From assembly GCF_021917145.1 (NCBI RefSeq), contig NC_061067.1, positions 928,449-992,448 on the forward strand: a stretch of 64,000 bases of DNA. The letters run 5' to 3'. Under the pieces are notes generated by a model that saw only the letters and a program-made list of their open reading frames with translations, had not been told where the DNA came from and searched no databases. Of the stretch, positions 37,296 to 59,595 are shown piece by piece (position 1 is the first letter of the stretch; each line of letters starts with the position of its first letter). The stretch is from Hypomesus transpacificus. Taxonomy: Eukaryota; Chordata; Actinopteri; Osmeriformes; Osmeridae. The position numbers were made by a program, and so were the translations under genes.

Positions 37296-40200
37296 ATGCC
37301 AGAGATGACTGAAACCCAGGACCTTGGCCATAAACCTAGGTAAGACTAATCATTGGTTACTGGTCCATGTGCGCAAGTGTGACTAAAGAGCATAGGACTG
37401 AGAATAAATGTGTTGTTGTTATAGCTTACCCCCATGTTTGACATGCAATATGATTTACCCCATGACCTTCTTTTGCAGAAGAAGAAAAAATAAAGAAATT
37501 CACAATGCCGGTAAGATCCTGTCAGTTTGCTGTCTGTCACTCTTTTTCTACTCATTCCAGTCATGTTTATTAAGGTACCTTCTTCTCAACGTTTTATCCT
37601 GTAGTTGAGAAAAAGAGAAAGGAGAAGATCAATGCTGGTATAAACCGCATTGGGAATCTTCTGCCATGCTCTCAGGCACTAAAACAGGTATGCCCGTCTT
37701 ATTCAAGAACATAAATATATATATATATATTGTACACACACATACATGCACACACGTATCAAATACAAAACACACACTCATTTGTCCCTCTGTCTCATCA
37801 GAGTAAGAACATGATCCTCGATGAGGCCTTCCGCTACATTACTGAGCTAAAGAAACAAAACGATGCAATGCTCCTTGAAGGAGGAGACAAAGGTCAAGGT
37901 ATGAATCATTTTTCCGTGGTCCTCAGTGGACACTGTATCGTATACTCATTATTCTTCAACTTTCGTGTTTTGTGTGTTATATCTGTGAGCATCGCTGACT
38001 GTTTCTTTTTCCGCGTAGCGGAGGAGATCCGGCGTCTCCGGCGGCAACTGGAGGAGCTGAGGAAGGAGAGCGGCCATTACATCGAGCTGCTCAAAGCTCA
38101 CGACATCAACTTCCTGGATGACCCCAGCATCCACTGGAAGGGCAAGATGCGTTGCGCCAAGGTTGCCAAGGTGACGCCCAACCACCAGCCCTCCAAAGGG
38201 ATCATCGTCTACCCTAACGGGAACACGACGTGTGCCGCGGGAAAAGAGCCCGGCTCTGGGAAACAGCAAGAGGAGGCGGTCTTCATCCAGCCGTCCTGCG
38301 ACGTCATCCTCCATCATCCGCATTCCTACATCACCGTCCAGGGCCTCTGTCCCCTACCCACCGGCACCACAGCCCTGCCCCAGCCCACACCCCAAGCCCC
38401 TAGTCTGACTGCAGCGTCATCCAGCCTAGCCACCCACCTCCCATATCACTTTGTCCCTAGCCTTACAGCCCTCCCTCAGGTTGTGACTACATCCAGAGCT
38501 CTCGTCTCAGAAATCTCCACCCAGTTAAACACCCAGCCGGGGGTTGGGACCAGGAGTCAGAGCTACACCACCCCCCCCCCCAGCTCAGGCCTGCTGAGGG
38601 CTGAGGCAGCAGGCAGCACACAGACCACGTGGACCACACTACAGCTGGCAGGGAACACAGTGCAGCCAGTCTGCCAGAATCTACCCGCCCCAGAGATGAA
38701 CACTACTGGCCAGACAATGCAACAACTGACTGTATGCCCCGTGGCCACCAAAGCTACAGTTCAGCCAGTTCATATCCAGATGAGGCCTCAGCTACCCATA
38801 AAACAGGCCCCTATCACAGCCCATATCCAGGCCCAGCCCTCCATCCAGAAGCCCCCCCATCTACAGCCATCCATCATTGCCCAACCCCATTTACTGCCCC
38901 AGTGTGCTGTCCTTCCACAGACAGCCAGAGTCCCACAGCAACCTGTTCTAACCCACCCTGCCATGATGCCACAACCACAAACGACTGTGTTACAAAAGGC
39001 TTCGGTGGTTCCCCATCCCCAGACAGCTGTCCTGCCCCAGCCAGCCTTGGGCCAGCAGCCCCAGGCTGCAGTGCTGCCCCTGCTTCAGACCATGCAGGTG
39101 CTGCAGGTTAATCCTGCAGGCTCGACTGTTGCCGGGGTGACCGCTTCGCAGAACACTAACAACCCCAGCGTTGTCATCCTGCAGCAAGCCAATCCGTGCT
39201 CTACCCAGCCAGTTGCTCGAGAGGACTTGACCAATCAGACAGCTTGCCAGCACATCGTTATCATCCAAGCCCCCAATCAGACGTCACCTGTTCCTCAGAA
39301 CCCGTCGGTTGGCATGGTGACGGCTACGGTGCCTGTAGTCTCCAGTCAGATCGTCTCGACCAGTTGCACTACTTCTACCACTGGCCTCCAGACCGTCGGG
39401 GGGAAGCAGCTGGTTCACATTCTACCCCGGCCCTCCGCAACAACAACCCACACGCCCCAGCCTGCCGCCTGCCCCCCGGCTTCACCTGGCCCCTCCGCCC
39501 CCCAGACCATCACTGTAAACGGCCAGGTGTTTGCCCTGAAGCCCATGAAGACCTCCGACAAGGGCGGCCCCCAGGGAACCCAGAGCACCCTTCAGCTGGT
39601 TCAGCCCACCACCAGCGAGGAGCCCACCACCAACGTGGCCCTCAACAGTCTCGGGGCCCTTAGTAGCCTCAACCAGAGCATCTCTCAGGGCATGCCTCAG
39701 CACAGCATCTCCAGCCAGGGAAGCCTCCAGCTGTCTGGTGCCTCTCCAGCGTACTCGGTGGTGCAGCATCATCAGCTGCCTCCCGTCTCTGGCTCCGCCC
39801 CTGCCACCCCCGTCAGACAGCTCCAGTCTCCCAGTGGAGCGTCAGCCGGACGAGGGGGCGGGACGGGGAAGGCAGCCCCTAAGAGAATCCCCACAAAGAG
39901 GACCAAGACAACCAGGAGGAGAGAACCCAAACAGCGACGCAGCACGGCCGCCATTTCTACCAGACCGGTAGTGGCAGCAGAAGACAGTCCTAAACAGACG
40001 GGCGCTGTGTCTCAAGATGCCCCCCCTTTTGCTACTGTGGCTGTGGGTGCTGTTAGCGGCGTTGCTAACGCACCCTCAGTCAGTGACGCATTAAAACAGA
40101 GCATTAACTCAGACAGCGTTGTCTGCTCTGCACAGAGCACACTAAAGAATATAAATGTTTGTACTTCACAAACTGGTCTGACCACATCTGTACAGCCCGC

Positions 40201-43200
40201 GTTAACGGTTAGCGGCGTCAACTCGACTCAAGGTGAAGTCGTTGTCTGTATTGTTGGCACCAGTCCTACAGTCGGCCCTGCCGTTTCCTCCCAGAGCAAA
40301 GCACACACGGTAGTCAGTGTCCCTCAGAACAAGCGTGCCGCTTCACAGGATAGGCAGGCCGTCTCCGTGACGACCGGCACAGCACAAACCAGATCGCCTC
40401 CGTCTGCCGTCGCTTCTTCTAAACAAAGCAAACCCGGTGTCACCAGTGCCTGGGCCACAGAAACTAGACTCGCCACCGTCAGTCCGGCTACGACGGCATG
40501 TCAGCCACTTGTCGGCACAGTCACTTCCACACAGGCTGAACAGTTGGTTTCCCTCCAGGACTCTGTGCTTACTACTTCGGTTTGTCAGACCAGGCCAGAC
40601 AACATACAGGAGCACCAGTTTACCGCCCTGGCCCAGGCCCAGCCCCTGGCCCAGCCCCTGGTCCTGGCCCAGCCCGTGCCCCAGGCCCAGCCTGTGGCCC
40701 AGACCCAGCCCTTGGCCCAGCTCCAGCCCCTGGCCCTTTCCTCTGTACCCTCATCCACAGCTTCATCCTCTGCGGCTCTGTTGCCTGTTGTCCCTCCGAT
40801 CCCTGCTGAATTCCGAAAACGGACTCAAACAAACCGACCCTCAGCCCAGCAGCCAGACCAGAACAACCTTGCCTCCTCCTTGTCCTCCAATGCTGTGCTC
40901 AAACTTCCAGACGTCTCCGAGAGGGAGCCTCAGAGAGGGAAATCGAATCCCACGACGGCCATGGAAAAGGAAAGCCAGAGGAACAATACCACCCCTTCCA
41001 GAAAGATCTCTGCCCTCCCACAGCAAGTGTACTCCCTAGAACACCAGGTCACGGAACAACCAAACCAAACACACCAAACATCAAACCCGCAGACGGACTC
41101 TCCCATGTCCGCCGGAGCGGGGGGCGGGAGGGGCTTCTCCGTGGCGTCCATGCTGCCCCAAGCATTCACCTTCACCTCAGAGCAGGCTGACATCCTGGCT
41201 TTGGCTATGCTGGAGCAGGACAGCTCTGGGGGAAGAGTAGACATCCCCATCTCCGCAAACAACCCTACTTGGGAACCCCCAAAGTCACAGCAAGCCCCCC
41301 ACTGCAAAGAGAGGGTTACGGGGCCTCAGACAAAGGTTACCAAGACGACCATGGAGCCAGTGGTAGCCAAGCCGCCTTCCCAGGTGGCGGTCAGAGGTCA
41401 GGCTGGAGAGACGGGGGCCGTCAGCGGGCCCTCGGGGGCCAGACACCCGCAGAACATCAACTATGCCCAGTCTCACACCCACACCCAGTCCCACGTCCAG
41501 AGCCAGGCGCACGCTGGAACCGTGGGCACCCTCAGTGTCAACAACCTCATCAGGTCCAGCTCCAGCCAGCAGCCCTACCCTGGCTCCCCCGGCATGGCTG
41601 CTGGCCAGCAAGGCTCGGTCCCATCTCCGGTGGGCACCTCAGCGCTGGCGTCCCAGCCCTCTACCTCCGGCCACACTTCCTGCTCTGGGAACGGCCAGCT
41701 GAGTGACTATGCCCCCGTCAAGAGCTCTCTGATGAGGGCTTCCATGGGCATGGGGGAACGACACGTTAAGGACATATCCAAGCGTCCCGCCCCGGAGGAC
41801 GTGATGTTGCCTTCCAGCAACAAGCGTCCCAAGACCTGTCCGTCGGCCGCCCCCAGTGTGGGCCGTATGGAGGTGAAGGCCCAGGATCACGGGCAGAGTC
41901 AGATGATGATTGGCCAGGTTCCCCCCAGCTCCTCAACCGTCATGAGCAGGATAAACCCTGACGGAGGAGGTACCTTGTTCTCCAGTAACTCCTTCATGAG
42001 CACAGTGCTCAGGCCCATAGACAGCCACTGTGCCCCCCAGCATCAGGAACAGAGCCAGCCAGGAGTGCTGCACCTGCCCCAGGGGCATTCCCAGCACGGG
42101 GCGCCCCAGCCCGGGCAGCATCTGGGGCCAAACCAGTACCTGAAACAACAGCAGCAGCAACAACAACAGGATCACCAGAGGCATCACTTGTATCAGCTCC
42201 AGCACCATCTCACCCAGCCTGACCCTGCTCAACTGCACAGTCTCCACCAGAGGGCGTTGCAGCAGGACCCACAGCACGTCCAGAACGCCCAGAAGAAAAG
42301 GGGACTTGTCCGAGCCAATCAGAGCGGACCCCCTGTGGGGCTTCAGCAGAAACAGCATCACCTGGAGAAGGCTGGAGTGCATCAACAACAACAGCAGCAG
42401 CAGCAGCAGACACAACAACACCAACAACAACATGCCCAACAGCCATCACATCAACAACAACAACAAACGCATCAGCAGTCACAACATCAACAGCAGCAGC
42501 CGTCCCAACATCAACAAGCCCAACATCAGCAGCATCAACAACAGACACAGCATCAACAACAGTCCCAGACACAGCAGCATCAACAACAGTCCCAACAGCA
42601 GCAGCAACAACAACAGCTACAGCAGCAACAAAGCTCTCACTCCAGACACCAGCACCTGCAGCAGCACCTGCAGCAGCAGCAGCACTTTGGAGCGTCTCGA
42701 CACCAGGAGAAGAGCTGCGATGCCCAGCCAGCGGGTTCCAGGGCGCACCACAGCAGCCACCTAGCCCAGCAGGAACACCACAAGGTAGGGAGGAAGGATT
42801 CGGTTTCTTAGATTATTACATTTAATTTAAATGTTTTACTCTCAATGTACATTCAGTATATCTGGTATGTGTTTTCACTTGAACAATGACTAAAGAGGAT
42901 GAACGTTGGCTAGCATTGTGTTATTACTGTGAAGTTAACTCCTGTCCTTTCCCCAGTCTGGTCAGGAACACATGCAACGTCTGATGAGCTCTAGGACCCT
43001 GGAGCAGCAGCTGATATCCCAGCCCGGCAACAACCCCGCGTCTCGGCCTTCCGACCTGGCCTGCGCCCCCTCGCGGCAGGAGCGCCACCGCGTCTCCAGC
43101 TATTCCGCGGAGGCCCTCATCGGAAAGACCTCCTCCAGCGGCGACCAGCAGCAGCGGATGGTGGGGCTGCACTTGCAGGCCACGCGGGGCAGCACCCAGG

Positions 43201-44777
43201 AGCAGCCAGACCTGCGGGGGTACCTGGACACGTCCAGAGGGAAAGGCAATATCGGGCACAACCCCCAGAACCCCAGGCTGAGCCAGGAACACCCCGGGCC
43301 GTCGGACATCCAGCGGGGGTTGGAATGCCCCCCGTTCAAAGCCCTGGGCGGTGGAGGAGGTCATCAGCTAGGTGGCTTTGAGGTGCAAGTGTCCCGCGGT
43401 GGGGACATGGCCCCTAAATCCATCCCCCCTTCCCAGAGAGGTCCGCAGGGGCAGCAGCAGGGCGTGTTCAGGATGGGGGTCGGCTCTCCCGGGGATGGAA
43501 GACCCCGCGGGGGTTACAGTGGAGCTCACCCGGGGCCCCAGGGGGTGCAGATAGGGGCGGGGTTACCCAGGGACCAGGAGGGTTGTCACCATAGCTTCAT
43601 GCAGTCCCTTCTCTCTCCGCACATTTCAGAGCAGACTAACCACCAGAGGGCAGTGCAGTGCTGCCCTCCAGTCAGCATGGAGTACAGCTGTGTGCCGGGA
43701 GCCTCTGCAGGAGACATGCAGGCCAAGGCATCCAGCCCCAGTGTGCCTCCTACTCAGAAGACCCCAGGTATGAGGCTTGGAGAGGGAAACAAGGGCCATC
43801 TCGCCCAGGCTGGTGGGAACATGCACGGAGGTCCCGGGGTACGAGCAGGCCTCCCCCACCCTGCTACCCCTCACAGCAGCTCGGAGCCTGGCCGTAGTTC
43901 AGCCCCCTCCAGGCCCCCTGGTGCTGTCAGCCAGCGCTCACGCCACCTCGCCCCGGACGCCCAGCCTGCCAAGCTCCGTCCTGGGGACAGGCTTCGTTCA
44001 GGCACCCTGAGACCAGGCAACCCTTTTGAGCCTGAGGGACACCTTCCCCTCCCCTCTGGTGGAGGGGTGCTCCTGGGAAGACCCCAGTCAGGGGGCGAAG
44101 CACGTCGCAGCAGCATCGTCCGCTTTATGGCCGACAGCTCTCAAGTCTCCGGGGACAACAACTTGGTGCCTGACCAACACTTGGCCCAAAACTTTGGCTT
44201 CCCCCCCTTCATCGCTGAGGGAGGGATGAACCACCCGCCCCCCATCAATGCCAACTCCACCTTCATCCCCCCGGTCAGCCAGTCCAGCTCCTCCCGCACC
44301 CCTGCCCTGCTCCCCGTGGAGTCCCAGAACACCATCCCCTCTTTCTACCCCTCCTACTCCCCCGCGGCCCACCCCAGCTTGCCCAGTGACATCCCTCTTC
44401 AGTACTTCTCCAATCAGATGTTTACGAGCCCCGGCGCAGACAAGGCTAGCGCCGCTCCTCTCAACAACCGCTTCGGCTCCATCCTCTCTCCTCCGCGCCC
44501 GGTCGGGTTTGCCCAGGCCAGCTTTCCCTTACTCCCTGACATGCCGCCCATGCCCATCACCAACTCCTCGGGCATCACCGCCCACCTGTCCAACTTCAGT
44601 CTCACGTCTCTGTTCCCGGAGATCGCCGCGGCGATGCCCTCCGACGGCTCGTCCATGCCCATGTCCCCCCTCCTGTCTCTGTCCAACACCTCATCGAGTG
44701 ACTCAGGCAAGCAACCCAACCGGCCCGCCCACAACATCAGCCACATCCTGGGGCATGATGGGAGCTCTGCGGTGTAG
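37296..44777 (+). CDS. usf3: Basic helix-loop-helix transcription factor USF3 (KIAA2018)
   Basis: Seven phase-consistent exons: 37296-37339 (ATG), 37479-37510, 37605-37687, 37802-37898, 38019-42784, 42957-44777 (TAG). That is six coding segments plus the noncoding first exon, about 2280 aa (human about 2245). The bHLH region spans residues about 20-85 (HNAVEKKRKEKINAGINRIG, then SKNMILDEAFRYITELKKQN). A leucine-heptad coiled coil follows. Long Gln/Pro/Ser/Thr-rich stretches follow, with USF3 landmarks TTWTTLQLAGNTVQP, GGKQLVHILPRP, TSEEPTTNVALN, SFSVASMLP-like and NRFGSILSPPRPVGFAQ. A Gln/His tract lies at about residues 1459-1646. The C-terminus is NISHILGHDGSSAV. An ORF starting at 37730 merely reads through introns 4 and 5 into the large exon. 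It is a predicted nuclear E-box-binding protein with a conserved but little-studied role. Confidence 0.95.
42150..42700 (+). repeat. usf3: CAG/CAA trinucleotide-rich polyglutamine tract in usf3
   Basis: Interrupted CAG/CAA/CAT codons encode runs of Gln broken by His, Ser, Thr and Pro. The interrupted codon usage suggests a long-lived, moderately stable tract. Frames on the other strand through it are artefacts. Confidence 0.9.
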
Positions 44778-47128: not shown

Positions 47129-47974
47129 TCAACTTTGGAGGGAATCCACTTCCTGCAGTGGTGCATCTTGGGATAATGGCGTTGTAACTGTTGTTGTGCT
47201 GGTGGATCGGTCTTCCTCTTCCAGTACTAAAAGAGGACAGCATGGCAGACCTGTATAGAAGAGAGAGAGAGCGAGAGAGAGGGGAACAAGTGACTTTTCT
47301 GAATGTAAGTTCAAGCGTTGTGTTAAGTGCAAAGGTGGAAAGGTGTGTGTGTGCAGCATGGCGTTTAAAGGCAGAACCTTACCTTTCGTTTCCAAGATGA
47401 CCACGTTGCCAAACTCGCTCTCTCCTCCCTCGTTGAAGCACTGCATCTTGATATCGTAGGCCGTCTCTGGCTGCAGGTCAGTAATGGAGTGCCAGTAGCG
47501 GTCTCCCTCCACCACATCCTTCTTGTAGTCGCTGTCGTTGTCGCTGTCCGTGGGCCGGTAGAAGATGTAGAAGCCGTAGATGGGCGTGTTGTTTTGAGGT
47601 GTGTACTGGTGTGTGAGAGAGAGAAGCAGGGATGATTTAGTGACACGTGTCTGTCAGACTCCCAAACACACGTAAGGAACCATCTCTACACAGTAATCTC
47701 ACTCTTCAGTCACCATAAACACATTCTCTGTCTCTTTTAGTTTGTACCATATTACATATCATATACATCCCTTTCTCATTACAGACACTCTCTTCAACTC
47801 ACCGTCCATTTTAGGATGATGGTCGTCTCGTTGATCGCTTCACTGTAGATAATGTATGGTGCATCTACAACACAAACACACAGTTTTAGAGTTCAATTGG
47901 TGACCCAACGCATAATGTAATATCCAAAGAGCTAACATCAGCCAGAATTCCAGCCAGAATTCCATATTTTGTAT

Positions 47975-48033
<59 letters not shown>

Positions 48034-48268
48034 TTTTCTTTATCCCTAAGCTTGATGGACTCGTACCTCGTGCGATTTCATTTGCATGCGGTACATTATT
48101 GGAGTAAAAGTGGGCGTCCTCTTCCAGTTCCAGACAGCTGATTGGCCGGTGTGAGGTGTTGAGAAGCTGGAGGGTGGAGTCATCAGGAAGACAACAGACT
48201 TCTCCATGGTGCTCTGGACAGCTGAGGGAGACGAGATGTGTGTGAACATTGTTTACCTGTTTACCTCC

Positions 48269-48305
<37 letters not shown>

Positions 48306-51300
48306 GCGGGTATAGTTGCATACCTGTTTGAGTAGTGGTAACCAGGTGTGTGTCCGTTTGACAGTGTCTGTGGCAGCAACGTGTCACACTCCAAGCCACA
48401 CTCCATATCCTCCTGCAGGGACAGGAAAAATAACCGGGTTATACACCAGCACGTTCTCCGAAAGGAAATCAGTTTGAATCCTCCGTAGAATAACGAGTCA
48501 TCCTGAAGATCGCTCAATCTGTTTTGTGAGTTACCTGGTGCAGTCCTGGCAGGCAGTGTGTGGGGTGATAAGGTTTCCCATTGGGGGTGTATTCTCCGTT
48601 AGGGGGGTACACTGCGTGTTGGTGGGCTAGGTGGGGGTCGAGGGGGCACTGTTTGACCAGGGCCAGGCCCTGGAGGGGAACCATGGTGTACTGGCAGGAG
48701 GAGACCGGGGAAGCCACAGCAGGGAAACACAGGTCTGACGTTTGCTCTGGCAGATCAAAACAAAAACAAGTTAAGACATTTAGGATGGTTTAGCGGCTGC
48801 ACCGTTTGCCACGGATCATGTTCCGAATATGTATGGAATATAGTTGGGTATATCGGGGTTTTGTTTTGGTCCTCCTCCTCCTCACTCACTCTGCTTGGCC
48901 CATGCCCTCCACAAGCAGAAGGGGATGAAGGCTACGATGATGAAGACCAGCACTCCCAAGACCACGCCCACGATGAGGTAGGGGAGGTCGCTGGGGCGGG
49001 GCACCGGGCCCCCAGGCTGCACGGGTCGGAGCGAGGGCACCTCTGACGGAGGAGAGGGCTGGTTTGAGCGAGCTAAGAAAGAAAGATAATCAGTTCACAT
49101 GTTTAACAACTACCGGTGATTTCATATCAGTTCATATACAAGCAATTATTGAAGTGCAGTGTCAGATAGACAGAAGCATACCTTTCGTTTCCAAGATGAC
49201 CACGTTGCCAAACTCGCTCTCTCCTCCCTCGTTGAAGCACTGCATCTTTATATCGTAGGCCGTCTCTGGCTGCAGGTCAGTAATGGAGTGCCAGTAGCGG
49301 TCTCCCTCCACCACATCCTTCTTGTAGTCGCTGTCGTTGTCGCTGTCCGTGGGCCGGTAGAAAATGTAGAAGCCGTAGATGGGCGTGTTGTTGTGAGGTG
49401 TGTACTGGTGTGTGAGAGAGAGAAGCAGGGATGATTTAGTGACACGTGTCTGTCAGACTCCCAAACACATGTAAGGAAGTGATGTGAGACTTCACTCTGT
49501 CCTCACAAACACATTGGGGGCGAAAAACACTGTCACTTGTCCCCTTCCTTCCCTTCCTTCCCTTTCTTTATCTTGCTTTCTCTTCCTCCCTCCATCTCGG
49601 TTTTGATTCACTCACCGTCCATTTCAGGATGATGGTGGTCTCGTTGATGGCTTCGTTGTAGGTGATGTAGGGCCCGTCGATGGGCCTCTCGTTAGTCCTG
49701 CCACTACCCACCACCGTGTACAGCTTGGAGGGTGCACTGGGGGGGCTGGCCCCTATCACGTTCACAGCCACCACTCTGAACTTGTAGGACGTACCTAGAG
49801 CGACACAACGGATGTGGTCGGTGAACAATCTACAGCACATCTGGACGCGATTGTGATCATGACTGATTGGAAGAACAACATTAGGTCGACTATGAGAACG
49901 AGGATGACTGATGATGTCGACCGTTTTGGAAATGGCAATGATGAGGATAATTATGAGCAATAACATTCAAGTTCGCACGATGATGATGACGATAATAGAA
50001 AAAGATGATGGTGTGATCACGATACTAGCAGTGATCAGAGTATAGTGATGCCAATGCTATAGCTGAAGATGATGATGATGAAGAGTCTGACCTTTCTCAA
50101 GGCTGCTGATTTCCACAGAGAGTCTAGAAGGGGGGATGTTCGCCACGGCAACCTCCCACTCCGCTCCCTTCTTCTTGTACTCCACCCTGAACGACTGGAT
50201 GGGGAAACCGCGGTTACCGCGCGGGATCCAGGTCACGTACGCGGACGTCTCCGACGCCGTAGAGATGGTGGGTTTGTCAGGCGCTTCTGGAGCTGAGAAG
50301 CAGAAGACAGGACATCAAGCAGACGAATACAACACACACACACACACACACTGTTTCCCCATTGGCCACCCATACATGGTGCGGGCACATGCACACAACA
50401 ACAACACAGAAACCAGTAGGACACCAACAGACACTTACTGTTGGCTCATCCTTCAGTGGGAGGAGTGAAAGAGATTAGAAGATTTGGAGGTTAGTACAGA
50501 ATAGAAAGGTTATAGGTTAACGCCGTAGCCTAGGAACAGTGAGAACACAGCCGTTAAGACGGTGTAGATGTGAGTTAAACAGCTCAGATACTCTTGGCAG
50601 TGTTGTAGCTGTGCTAGGGTTAGTTACAGGATGTGAGAATGGAGAGGGATGTTTTGTAACGGTTTTTTTCCCTTCCGCAACAGGAACTCACGAGAGAGGC
50701 GAGGTGAAGGCACAGGCGGAGTCTTCGGGGGTTCGTTTGGCCCTGGGCTTCGGCGACCTATCGTCATGGAGACAACAACATGAACAAAGACGATTAATAC
50801 AAACAGGTCGGAGACGATCAATGGAGCCTTTCCAGTTCTGCAAAATAACTGACAAAAAGACTTGGAACACTCAGAGTCCCTTATATAAGAGGGTTGAACT
50901 GAACAGATGATGATGATGACCTAGTCTGGTACCTTTGCCTGTTCTGAAGGTCATCATGGCGGGCTGGCCCAGACCGGCACAGTTTTTGGCGGCCATTTCC
51001 ACCTCGTAGAGGCTGGCGGGATGCAGCTTGGCCAGGGTGAGCTTGTGGAGGGACCCTGGGATGCTGCTGGTGGCCCATTCACCTGGAGGGTCTCCGGTCT
51101 GGCACAGGGAGACAGGGAGAGAGACTGTCAGTGCTACTTTAAAAGGAAATGACACAGCCTAAAGCAGTTTGACAGTTCTAATTTTACAAATGTCTATGTG
51201 AATCGAACAAATCTCCATGTGAATAATTTGGGTTTGTGCCGACCTGTGGCAGATACCATTTGAATAACTACATCACTGCGAGAACAAGTGTATTCTGAAA

Positions 51301-58311: not shown

Positions 58312-59595
58312 ACACACACACTCCTTGCTGTCATCCTCCCCCATCCCCGGTAGATGGAATGTGGTGTTGTGGGTAGCAAGGGAACAGGGGAACTGATGGA
58401 GGGATCCAGAGATGGAGGGAGGGGGGGCCCCATCCTGAAAGGGCCCTGCCCCAGGGTCCCTCCACACCAGTGGGTCAGGTTACAGCTTAATGGCCTCTCT
58501 CTGTCTCCGTCCCCTGGCACACACTAAACACTGGCTCTCTTCTCAGACTCGCACAACTCTACACTGCTAACCCAACACACAACTGTTTACAACACCATAC
58601 ACACAACAATGCACCAGCGGGTAAGAAACTCCCTCCCCAGTTCCATTTACACCCTCTCTACATTGTGAAGTGAGATAGCGCTTGTTTATTGTTTGTGGAA
58701 GGTTTGACTGGAACCAAAGTGGTTTAGTTAATCGTCTAGTTAATCGCAGTATTAGGTTTTGAGTTCGCACAATTATAGTATTTGTTTTAAGTGTACAGTG
58801 TGTTTATACCTTAGTATAGATTATATGCATATGCGTACTTCCAGGCTGAAATACGAATGAAAGTGATCTTGAGTATATCGGTATATTCATTTGGACTAGT
58901 ACTCACTAGCTGCAGTGACGTTAGCAGGCACGCTAGCGAGGGCTCCAGCCCCGGTGCTGGCCACACACTGGTACCTCCCCAGGGTCAGGTTGGTGAGGGC
59001 GGGGATGAGCAGGGCTCCAGGTGCCACCACCACGCCCAGCTCCCCGCCCGCCCCGCCAGCCAGCTCTTGGCCGTTCAGACGCCAGCTGATGTTGGCGCTG
59101 GAGGGGAGGGCCGTGCAGCGCAGGGTCACGCTGCCCCCCAGTTTCTGAACCACAGAGAGAGGCTCCTGGGTGAAGACTGGGATCTCATCTGCGGAGGGAG
59201 AGATCAGGGGGAGAAGAGAGAGTCAGGAGGGGAGGGAGAAAGGAGAGAAGGGAGGGAGAGATAATCAAAGAGAGATAAAATTGAGTTTGTTTATGGTCTA
59301 CATATGCTCTCGTGTAAATTAACGGACACAAAAACCAGGCTCTGTCAAACAACATGCTACAAGCAGAGACAGTGGCGGTGGACTGACCAGAGACAGTGAC
59401 GGTGGACTGACCAGAGACAGTGACGGTGGACTGACCAGAGACAGTGACGGTGGACTGACCAGAGACAGTGACGGTGGACTGACCAGAGACAGTGGCGCCG
59501 CTCTGCAGGCAGCAGAGCAGTACTGCACCCAGAGCACAGAGCACTCGAGCCCTTCGCTTTTTCATCCAGGGAGTCCAGTCCAGCGTTCCAGACAT
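47129..59595 (-). CDS. boc: Brother of CDO (BOC), Hedgehog co-receptor
   Basis: Seventeen minus-strand coding exons: 59595-59484 (ATG, signal peptide), 59188-58907, 55198-55052, 53901-53758, 53339-53046, 52143-51871, 51617-51349, 51098-50933, 50757-50692, 50292-50092, 49794-49616, 49404-49182, 49072-48890, 48746-48535, 48412-48324, 48221-48067 and 47250-47129. Phases agree throughout; about 1038 aa. The order is signal peptide, four Ig domains, three FN3 domains, a membrane segment (about residues 815-838) and a cytoplasmic tail. BOC-specific blocks include [66 protein letters not shown] and [15 protein letters not shown]. The protein binds Hedgehog ligands through its FN3 domains and guides axons and muscle differentiation. 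A second copy of two FN3 exons lies in the last intron (47383-47864) and is left out of this model. Confidence 0.95.
47383..47864 (-). pseudogene. boc: Duplicated FN3 exon pair inside the last boc intron
   Basis: Exon-like blocks 47864-47803 (62 nt) and 47605-47383 (223 nt) repeat the FN3-3 coding sequence found at 49794-49616 and 49404-49182. The 223-nt block differs from 49404-49182 at only about two or three positions and keeps both splice sites. The 62-nt block matches only the 3' third of its counterpart and is clearly more diverged. Phase in is 1, internal 0 and phase out 1, so inclusion would add 95 in-frame residues after the cytoplasmic tail exons. It could be an unused duplicate, an alternative cassette or an assembly error. 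Confidence 0.85.
47972..48026 (+). repeat. (TA)n microsatellite in boc intron
   Basis: Pure TA dinucleotides, between the duplicated FN3 block and the cytoplasmic exon 48221-48067. Confidence 0.97.
52144..53045 (-). other. boc intron with (GGGA)n and (CA)n repeats
   Basis: A gggagggagatgggg repeat lies at 52145-52230, with several (CA)n tracts between 52310 and 52720. No further exon recognised. Confidence 0.7.
54596..54865 (+). repeat. Dispersed repeat, copy A
   Basis: A segment including aagctggatatcagaagctc and gcttgccctccacaaaggag is repeated in inverted orientation at 60575-60815. It is an unclassified interspersed family; I see no coding frame or clear termini. Confidence 0.75.
54966..55021 (+). 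repeat. (GA)n microsatellite in boc intron
   Basis: Pure GA tract about 30 bases downstream (minus sense) of the donor of exon 55198-55052. Confidence 0.95.
55199..58906 (-). other. Large boc intron between Ig1 and Ig2 exons
   Basis: 3.7 kb of intron with G runs (55856-55874), C runs (56697-56709, 58269-58297) and scattered (CA)n. Many frames appear by chance on both strands. I found no exon that fits the phase or BOC sequence. Confidence 0.6.
59366..59500 (-). repeat. boc: 24-bp minisatellite copying the boc signal-exon splice donor
   Basis: On the minus strand the unit gtcagtccaccgtcactgtc plus tctg repeats. GTCAGT donors stand at 59482-83, 59458-59, 59434-35, 59410-11 and 59386-87. The unit is eight codons with no stop, so every donor keeps the frame into the Ig1 exon. 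Confidence 0.93.

Follow-up and report, generated by a model that had tools for sequence, protein, structure and literature searches.

An in-frame copy of the FN3-3 exons in the last boc intron, probably an old duplication partly rewritten by gene conversion

The last intron of boc carries a second copy of the exons that encode the FN3-3 domain of the same gene, lying beyond the transmembrane exon and in a phase that would allow it to enter the cytoplasmic tail without a break in the reading frame. The gene appears to encode BOC, a Hedgehog co-receptor in which FN3-3 is the ligand-binding outer domain, and in both BOC and CDON this domain binds Hedgehog outside the cell. The best explanation as a whole, to which we give a probability of about 0.45, is that an old duplication placed the exon pair in the intron, that gene conversion later overwrote part of it, and that the copy may now serve as an alternative cassette between the last cytoplasmic exon and the terminal exon. 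Coordinates below are those of the window, i.e. the whole 64,000-nt stretch of DNA analysed, and left and right follow the direction in which boc is read.

On the minus strand, the 3′ exons of boc run in the order A, B, C, D, E, F, a, b and L, with the stop codon in L. Exon A (49616–49794; phase 1 in, 0 out) encodes the end of FN3-2 and the first strands of FN3-3, exon B (49182–49404; phase 0 in, 1 out) encodes the remainder of FN3-3, and the joined A+B protein matches Pfam. Exon C (48890–49072), which exits in phase 1, contains a 23-residue hydrophobic stretch that we read, from sequence alone, as the transmembrane segment, and it is followed by the cytoplasmic exons D (48535–48746), E (48324–48412) and F (48067–48221). 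The copy comprises exon a (47803–47864, 62 nt), corresponding to the first strands of FN3-3, an intron (47606–47802) and exon b (47383–47605, 223 nt), all upstream of the last exon, L (47129–47250). The intron between b and L (47382–47251, minus strand) is 132 nt long, a multiple of three, and lacks an in-frame stop; its retention would also be frame-neutral, possibly by chance.

A first-pass annotation had described these blocks as repeats of the FN3-3 exons, one nearly identical and the other visibly diverged, and alignment confirmed both points. Exon a (47864–47803) is identical to the end of A (49677–49616) at 51 of 62 positions (82%), and exon b (47605–47383) to B (49404–49182) at 220 of 223, with one replacement (H to Q) among the three differing sites. 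The coordinates and AG/GT dinucleotides given there for the two blocks contained no error. The repeat pairs, in the same order and on the same strand, extend over 300 nt ungapped at 98% identity and 63 nt at 87%, and both are far too long for chance, a judgement made on length and not on a computed chance estimate. Phases fit along the whole path, with F leaving in phase 1, a running from 1 to 0, b from 0 to 1, and L entering in phase 1. When exons were spliced in silico from A, the normal stop was reached after 386 codons without the copy and after 481 with a and b, adding exactly the 95 residues that had been proposed as a frame-neutral insertion, after the transmembrane segment and before the last 40 residues. 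Six of eight such joins reached the normal stop (A-B-C-D-E-F-L, the same with a and b, A-b-L, A-B-L, A-B-a-b-L and A-B-C-a-b-L). Out of frame were those that put a single member of the pair, a or b, into the tail, so in that position the two exons must be used together.

The 95-residue product spans an entire FN3 domain and scores 43.2 bits in Pfam fn3, above the cut-off of 25 and below the 57.1 bits of the original, which was submitted with more flank. Residues 2–95 of 95 match solved BOC FN3-3 structures (1x4y, E 1.3e-50; 3n1g, E 3.4e-50) ahead of CDON (3d1m, E 3.6e-46), and the name boc rests on this best match to BOC chains, in round figures 1e-50 versus 4e-46. The copied domain has a single cysteine, and would therefore have no internal disulfide to lose in the cytoplasm. 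Since the homologues belong to one gene, fit in phase and have splice sites, the pair shows the structural features of tandem duplicated alternative exons.

Splice sites were scored with a consensus matrix. On this scale, exon a has an acceptor of 6.7 and a donor of 10.1, and exon b an acceptor of 5.1 and a donor of 11.4, compared with acceptors of 5.1–12.8 (A, B, C, D, F and L) and donors of 6.8–10.1 (A–F) in the neighbouring boc exons. The splice signals had been called intact, and this holds: AG and GT are present throughout, and the scores of a and b lie within the range of the neighbouring exons or, at the donor of b, above it and above the 8.1 of the original B donor. Among the region's 611 AG sites, about 7% score higher than the acceptor of a (93rd percentile) and about 13% higher than that of b (87th), so both acceptors are ordinary. 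As scored here, nothing in the splice signals marks a dead copy.

The two exons differ sharply in their divergence from the originals, both overall (11/62 in a versus 3/223 in b; Fisher P 5e-6) and at third positions (8/21 versus 3/74; P 1.8e-4). Low divergence is confined to a putative recent conversion tract of 286 nt with three differences (47383–47668), which may reach a few bases further left and which takes in exon b and the last 63 nt of the a–b intron, identical to the original. The left part of this intron is diverged, with indels, and is homologous to the original by local alignment (score 42 against a shuffle mean of 25.4, with 8 of 2,000 shuffles as high), the method on which we relied for a region that MAFFT aligns poorly. 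To the right of exon b, the last clearly duplicated intron bases (47369–47382) differ at 3 of 14 sites, against 3 of 286 within the tract (P 0.0015), the donor reading GTAAGG versus GTATGC in the original. Beyond 47369, similarity to the original is weak and shifted (31 of 1,000 shuffles as high), making the right breakpoint uncertain. Left of exon a, homology to the original was not detectable (317 of 1,000 shuffles score as high), and on that ground we rejected a duplication that had also taken in the rest of exon A.

These patterns make it very probable that a single older duplication was followed by homogenisation of its right half by gene conversion. Identity changes sharply inside the duplicate, and the tract of about 286 nt is of a typical size, since conversion tracts seldom reach 300 bp according to a review quoted in the excerpted text of PMC3484663. 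The intragenic duplication would have placed in the last boc intron a copy of about 500 nt, made up of the FN3-3 part of A, the following intron, B and the beginning of the intron after B; the right half, about 290 nt, would later have been overwritten by conversion between the copies, in either direction. A dS of 0.93 for exon a (NG86, 20 codons, with a very wide error) suggests that the duplication event was not recent. Within the same intron, about 116 nt upstream of exon a, lies a (TA)n stretch 47 nt long (47981–48027); such tracts break easily, and it may for that reason be linked to the insertion.

The first-pass annotation had offered either two events or recent conversion of one exon; the conversion is upheld here, whereas the homology of the left intron speaks against two separate insertions. 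Two independent duplications, with a inserted long ago and b copied later along with its 63-nt piece of intron, would account for the two blocks differing so much in identity, but they would leave unexplained why the left part of the a–b intron is homologous to the original, why order and spacing match (copy-to-original offsets of 1813 and 1799 for the two repeat blocks) and why the 14 nt to the right of b are diverged again, and we regard this history as very unlikely. A repeated haplotype or misassembly is more improbable still, to the point of being scarcely credible: the nearly identical right half is the sole point in its favour, set against a left half diverged with indels, an unrelated left flank and the position of the window inside its contig, at 928449–992448 of a sequence at least 992 kb long.

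Whether the copy has been maintained for its protein can be asked of exon a; exon b is uninformative on selection because it was recently homogenised. In exon a, no first codon position is changed, whereas 3 second and 8 third positions are, the third positions thus taking 8 of 11 changes (binomial P 0.01), and comparison with A over the 20 complete codons gives an NG86 dN of 0.067 and dS of 0.925. Those 20 whole codons contain 10 changes, of which 7 are at third positions and 3 are replacements. Simulations were conditioned on 10 changes, with the original evolving at an omega of 0.02 or 0.1 (791 and 761 accepted runs, respectively, for a free copy), and an outcome was counted as coding-like if 7 or more of the changes fell at third positions and no more than 3 were replacements. 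Such outcomes arose in 1.9% and 1.6% of runs for a freely drifting copy, rising to 18% and 15% at a copy omega of 0.5, 53% and 37% at 0.25, and 85% and 67% at 0.1. We take this as modest evidence that exon a was kept for its protein, with free drift disfavoured; partial conversion of sites within exon a may mimic such constraint.

If the copy is used, its likeliest role is as an alternative cassette pair, F-a-b-L, in some transcripts, a tentative proposal that we hold at somewhat less than even odds and close to level with no use at all. We place F-a-b-L first because it requires the fewest unusual joins. It would put an FN3 domain in the cytoplasmic tail, 40 residues before the C-terminus, where the copy could not reach Hedgehog and would act at most as a spacer or docking module. 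The pair could about as well be an unused duplicate, rarely or never spliced, that is intact only through a right half recently refreshed from B and a short left half. Exon copies inside genes are common according to the available portion of PMC9013439, exon b has no independent sign of selection, and 20 codons often stay open by chance, 73–75% of neutral simulations being without any stop over that length. This reading sits less easily with the third-position bias in a, for which the joint simulation P is 0.016–0.019, and with splice signals that flank both exons on both sides, including a donor of b stronger than that of B.

A membrane-free isoform, in which b (or a and b) is joined after A or B, the transmembrane and cytoplasmic exons are skipped and the copy provides an alternative 3′ end, is in our view quite unlikely. 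Its products would be either a secreted, complete Hedgehog-binding ectodomain (A-b-L), from a join that the first-pass annotation does not mention, or a form with two FN3-3 domains (A-B-a-b-L). Both run in frame to the normal stop, A-b-L rebuilds the full FN3-3, and extracellular use would give b a reason to stay B-like, but conversion alone explains that too; moreover, A-b skips six exons and B-a four, B-L yields nearly the same soluble product with no duplicate involved, and A-b-L leaves the retention of exon a unexplained. A further, rather unlikely reading is that the receptor has relocated a duplicate of its ligand-binding extracellular domain across the membrane, that this cytosolic copy is either selected for a new function inside the cell or supplies a soluble decoy isoform, and that conversion with the original couples the evolution of both copies.

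A genome search with exon b only, at the DNA level and with the best candidates scored, returned three matches at E ≤0.001: the two boc copies and a third hit, 78% over 76 nt, which we take to be cdon. Comparison with cdon was aimed at an ancestral intron before FN3-3, possibly retained only in the boc copy; above the cdon-like exon, 20 kb of sequence gave no match to exon A better than E 0.2, and the cdon-like exon is cut by a run of 100 N (1577–1676 of the sequence that holds it), which may be a gap in the assembly or withheld sequence. Scans for relatives gave 2 pattern matches in viral contigs and 42 in genome contigs, none of them confirmed, as expected for animal DNA. Elsewhere in the window, two long adjacent open reading frames on the plus strand (37715–44777), one of 1698 aa and glutamine-rich and one of 612 aa, lie tail to tail with boc and resemble USF3; the 612-aa frame had no Pfam match. 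On the upstream side of boc, at 59340–59521, a 24-nt unit is repeated in tandem about six times, open on the minus strand as repeats within a 171-aa open reading frame, and at 878–1203 a further tandem array, whose unit is about 27 nt long, is open in several frames (RGKAPCSRS and AAGAEVKPH, with AAWGFTSAP on the other strand).

Duplicated alternative exons usually exchange versions of a domain without altering its position. A domain copy that is phase-symmetric and lies beyond a transmembrane exon would offer a test of whether an extracellular fold is tolerated or co-opted in the cytoplasm, and also of whether the Hedgehog-binding original is constrained by conversion between differently selected copies. 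As a natural case, it is clean and testable. Among the matches listed by literature searches on boc with exon duplication, on boc with zebrafish, its cytoplasmic domain or its partners, and on exon duplication and conversion in teleosts, no title or opening of an abstract described such a copy, a weak result as subscription journals were mostly outside their scope.

In its copies within one gene, compatible phase and splice sites, the boc pair resembles the tandem duplicated alternative exons of vertebrates, as far as these are characterised in the excerpts of PMC9741552 and PMC9013439; the latter puts such homologues at about 2% of human exonic nucleotides at 80% identity, and about 15% for UTR exons. 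The events described in the same part of PMC9741552 are substitutions, with one copy or the other at the same place in the protein, whereas in boc a two-exon domain has been copied beyond the transmembrane exon and three cytoplasmic exons, and the copy would lie across the membrane. A parallel for the location is integrin beta4, a single-pass receptor with FN3 domains inside the cell that act there in protein–protein binding (PMC4388270, in the portion available), which makes the folding of an FN3 domain in the cytoplasm plausible; the cytoplasmic FnIII modules of integrin beta4 are, by the same partial account, its own, unlike that of boc, which is a copy of its own extracellular domain. The zinc-finger exons of teleost Piccolo, as presented in the excerpted text of PMC3484663, likewise encode a domain and were gained inside a single fish gene, but as many repeat copies and not as a pair. 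For Piccolo, the author favours unequal crossing-over and considers conversion less likely, given the usual size of conversion tracts; the boc tract, at about 286 nt, fits the size quoted there.
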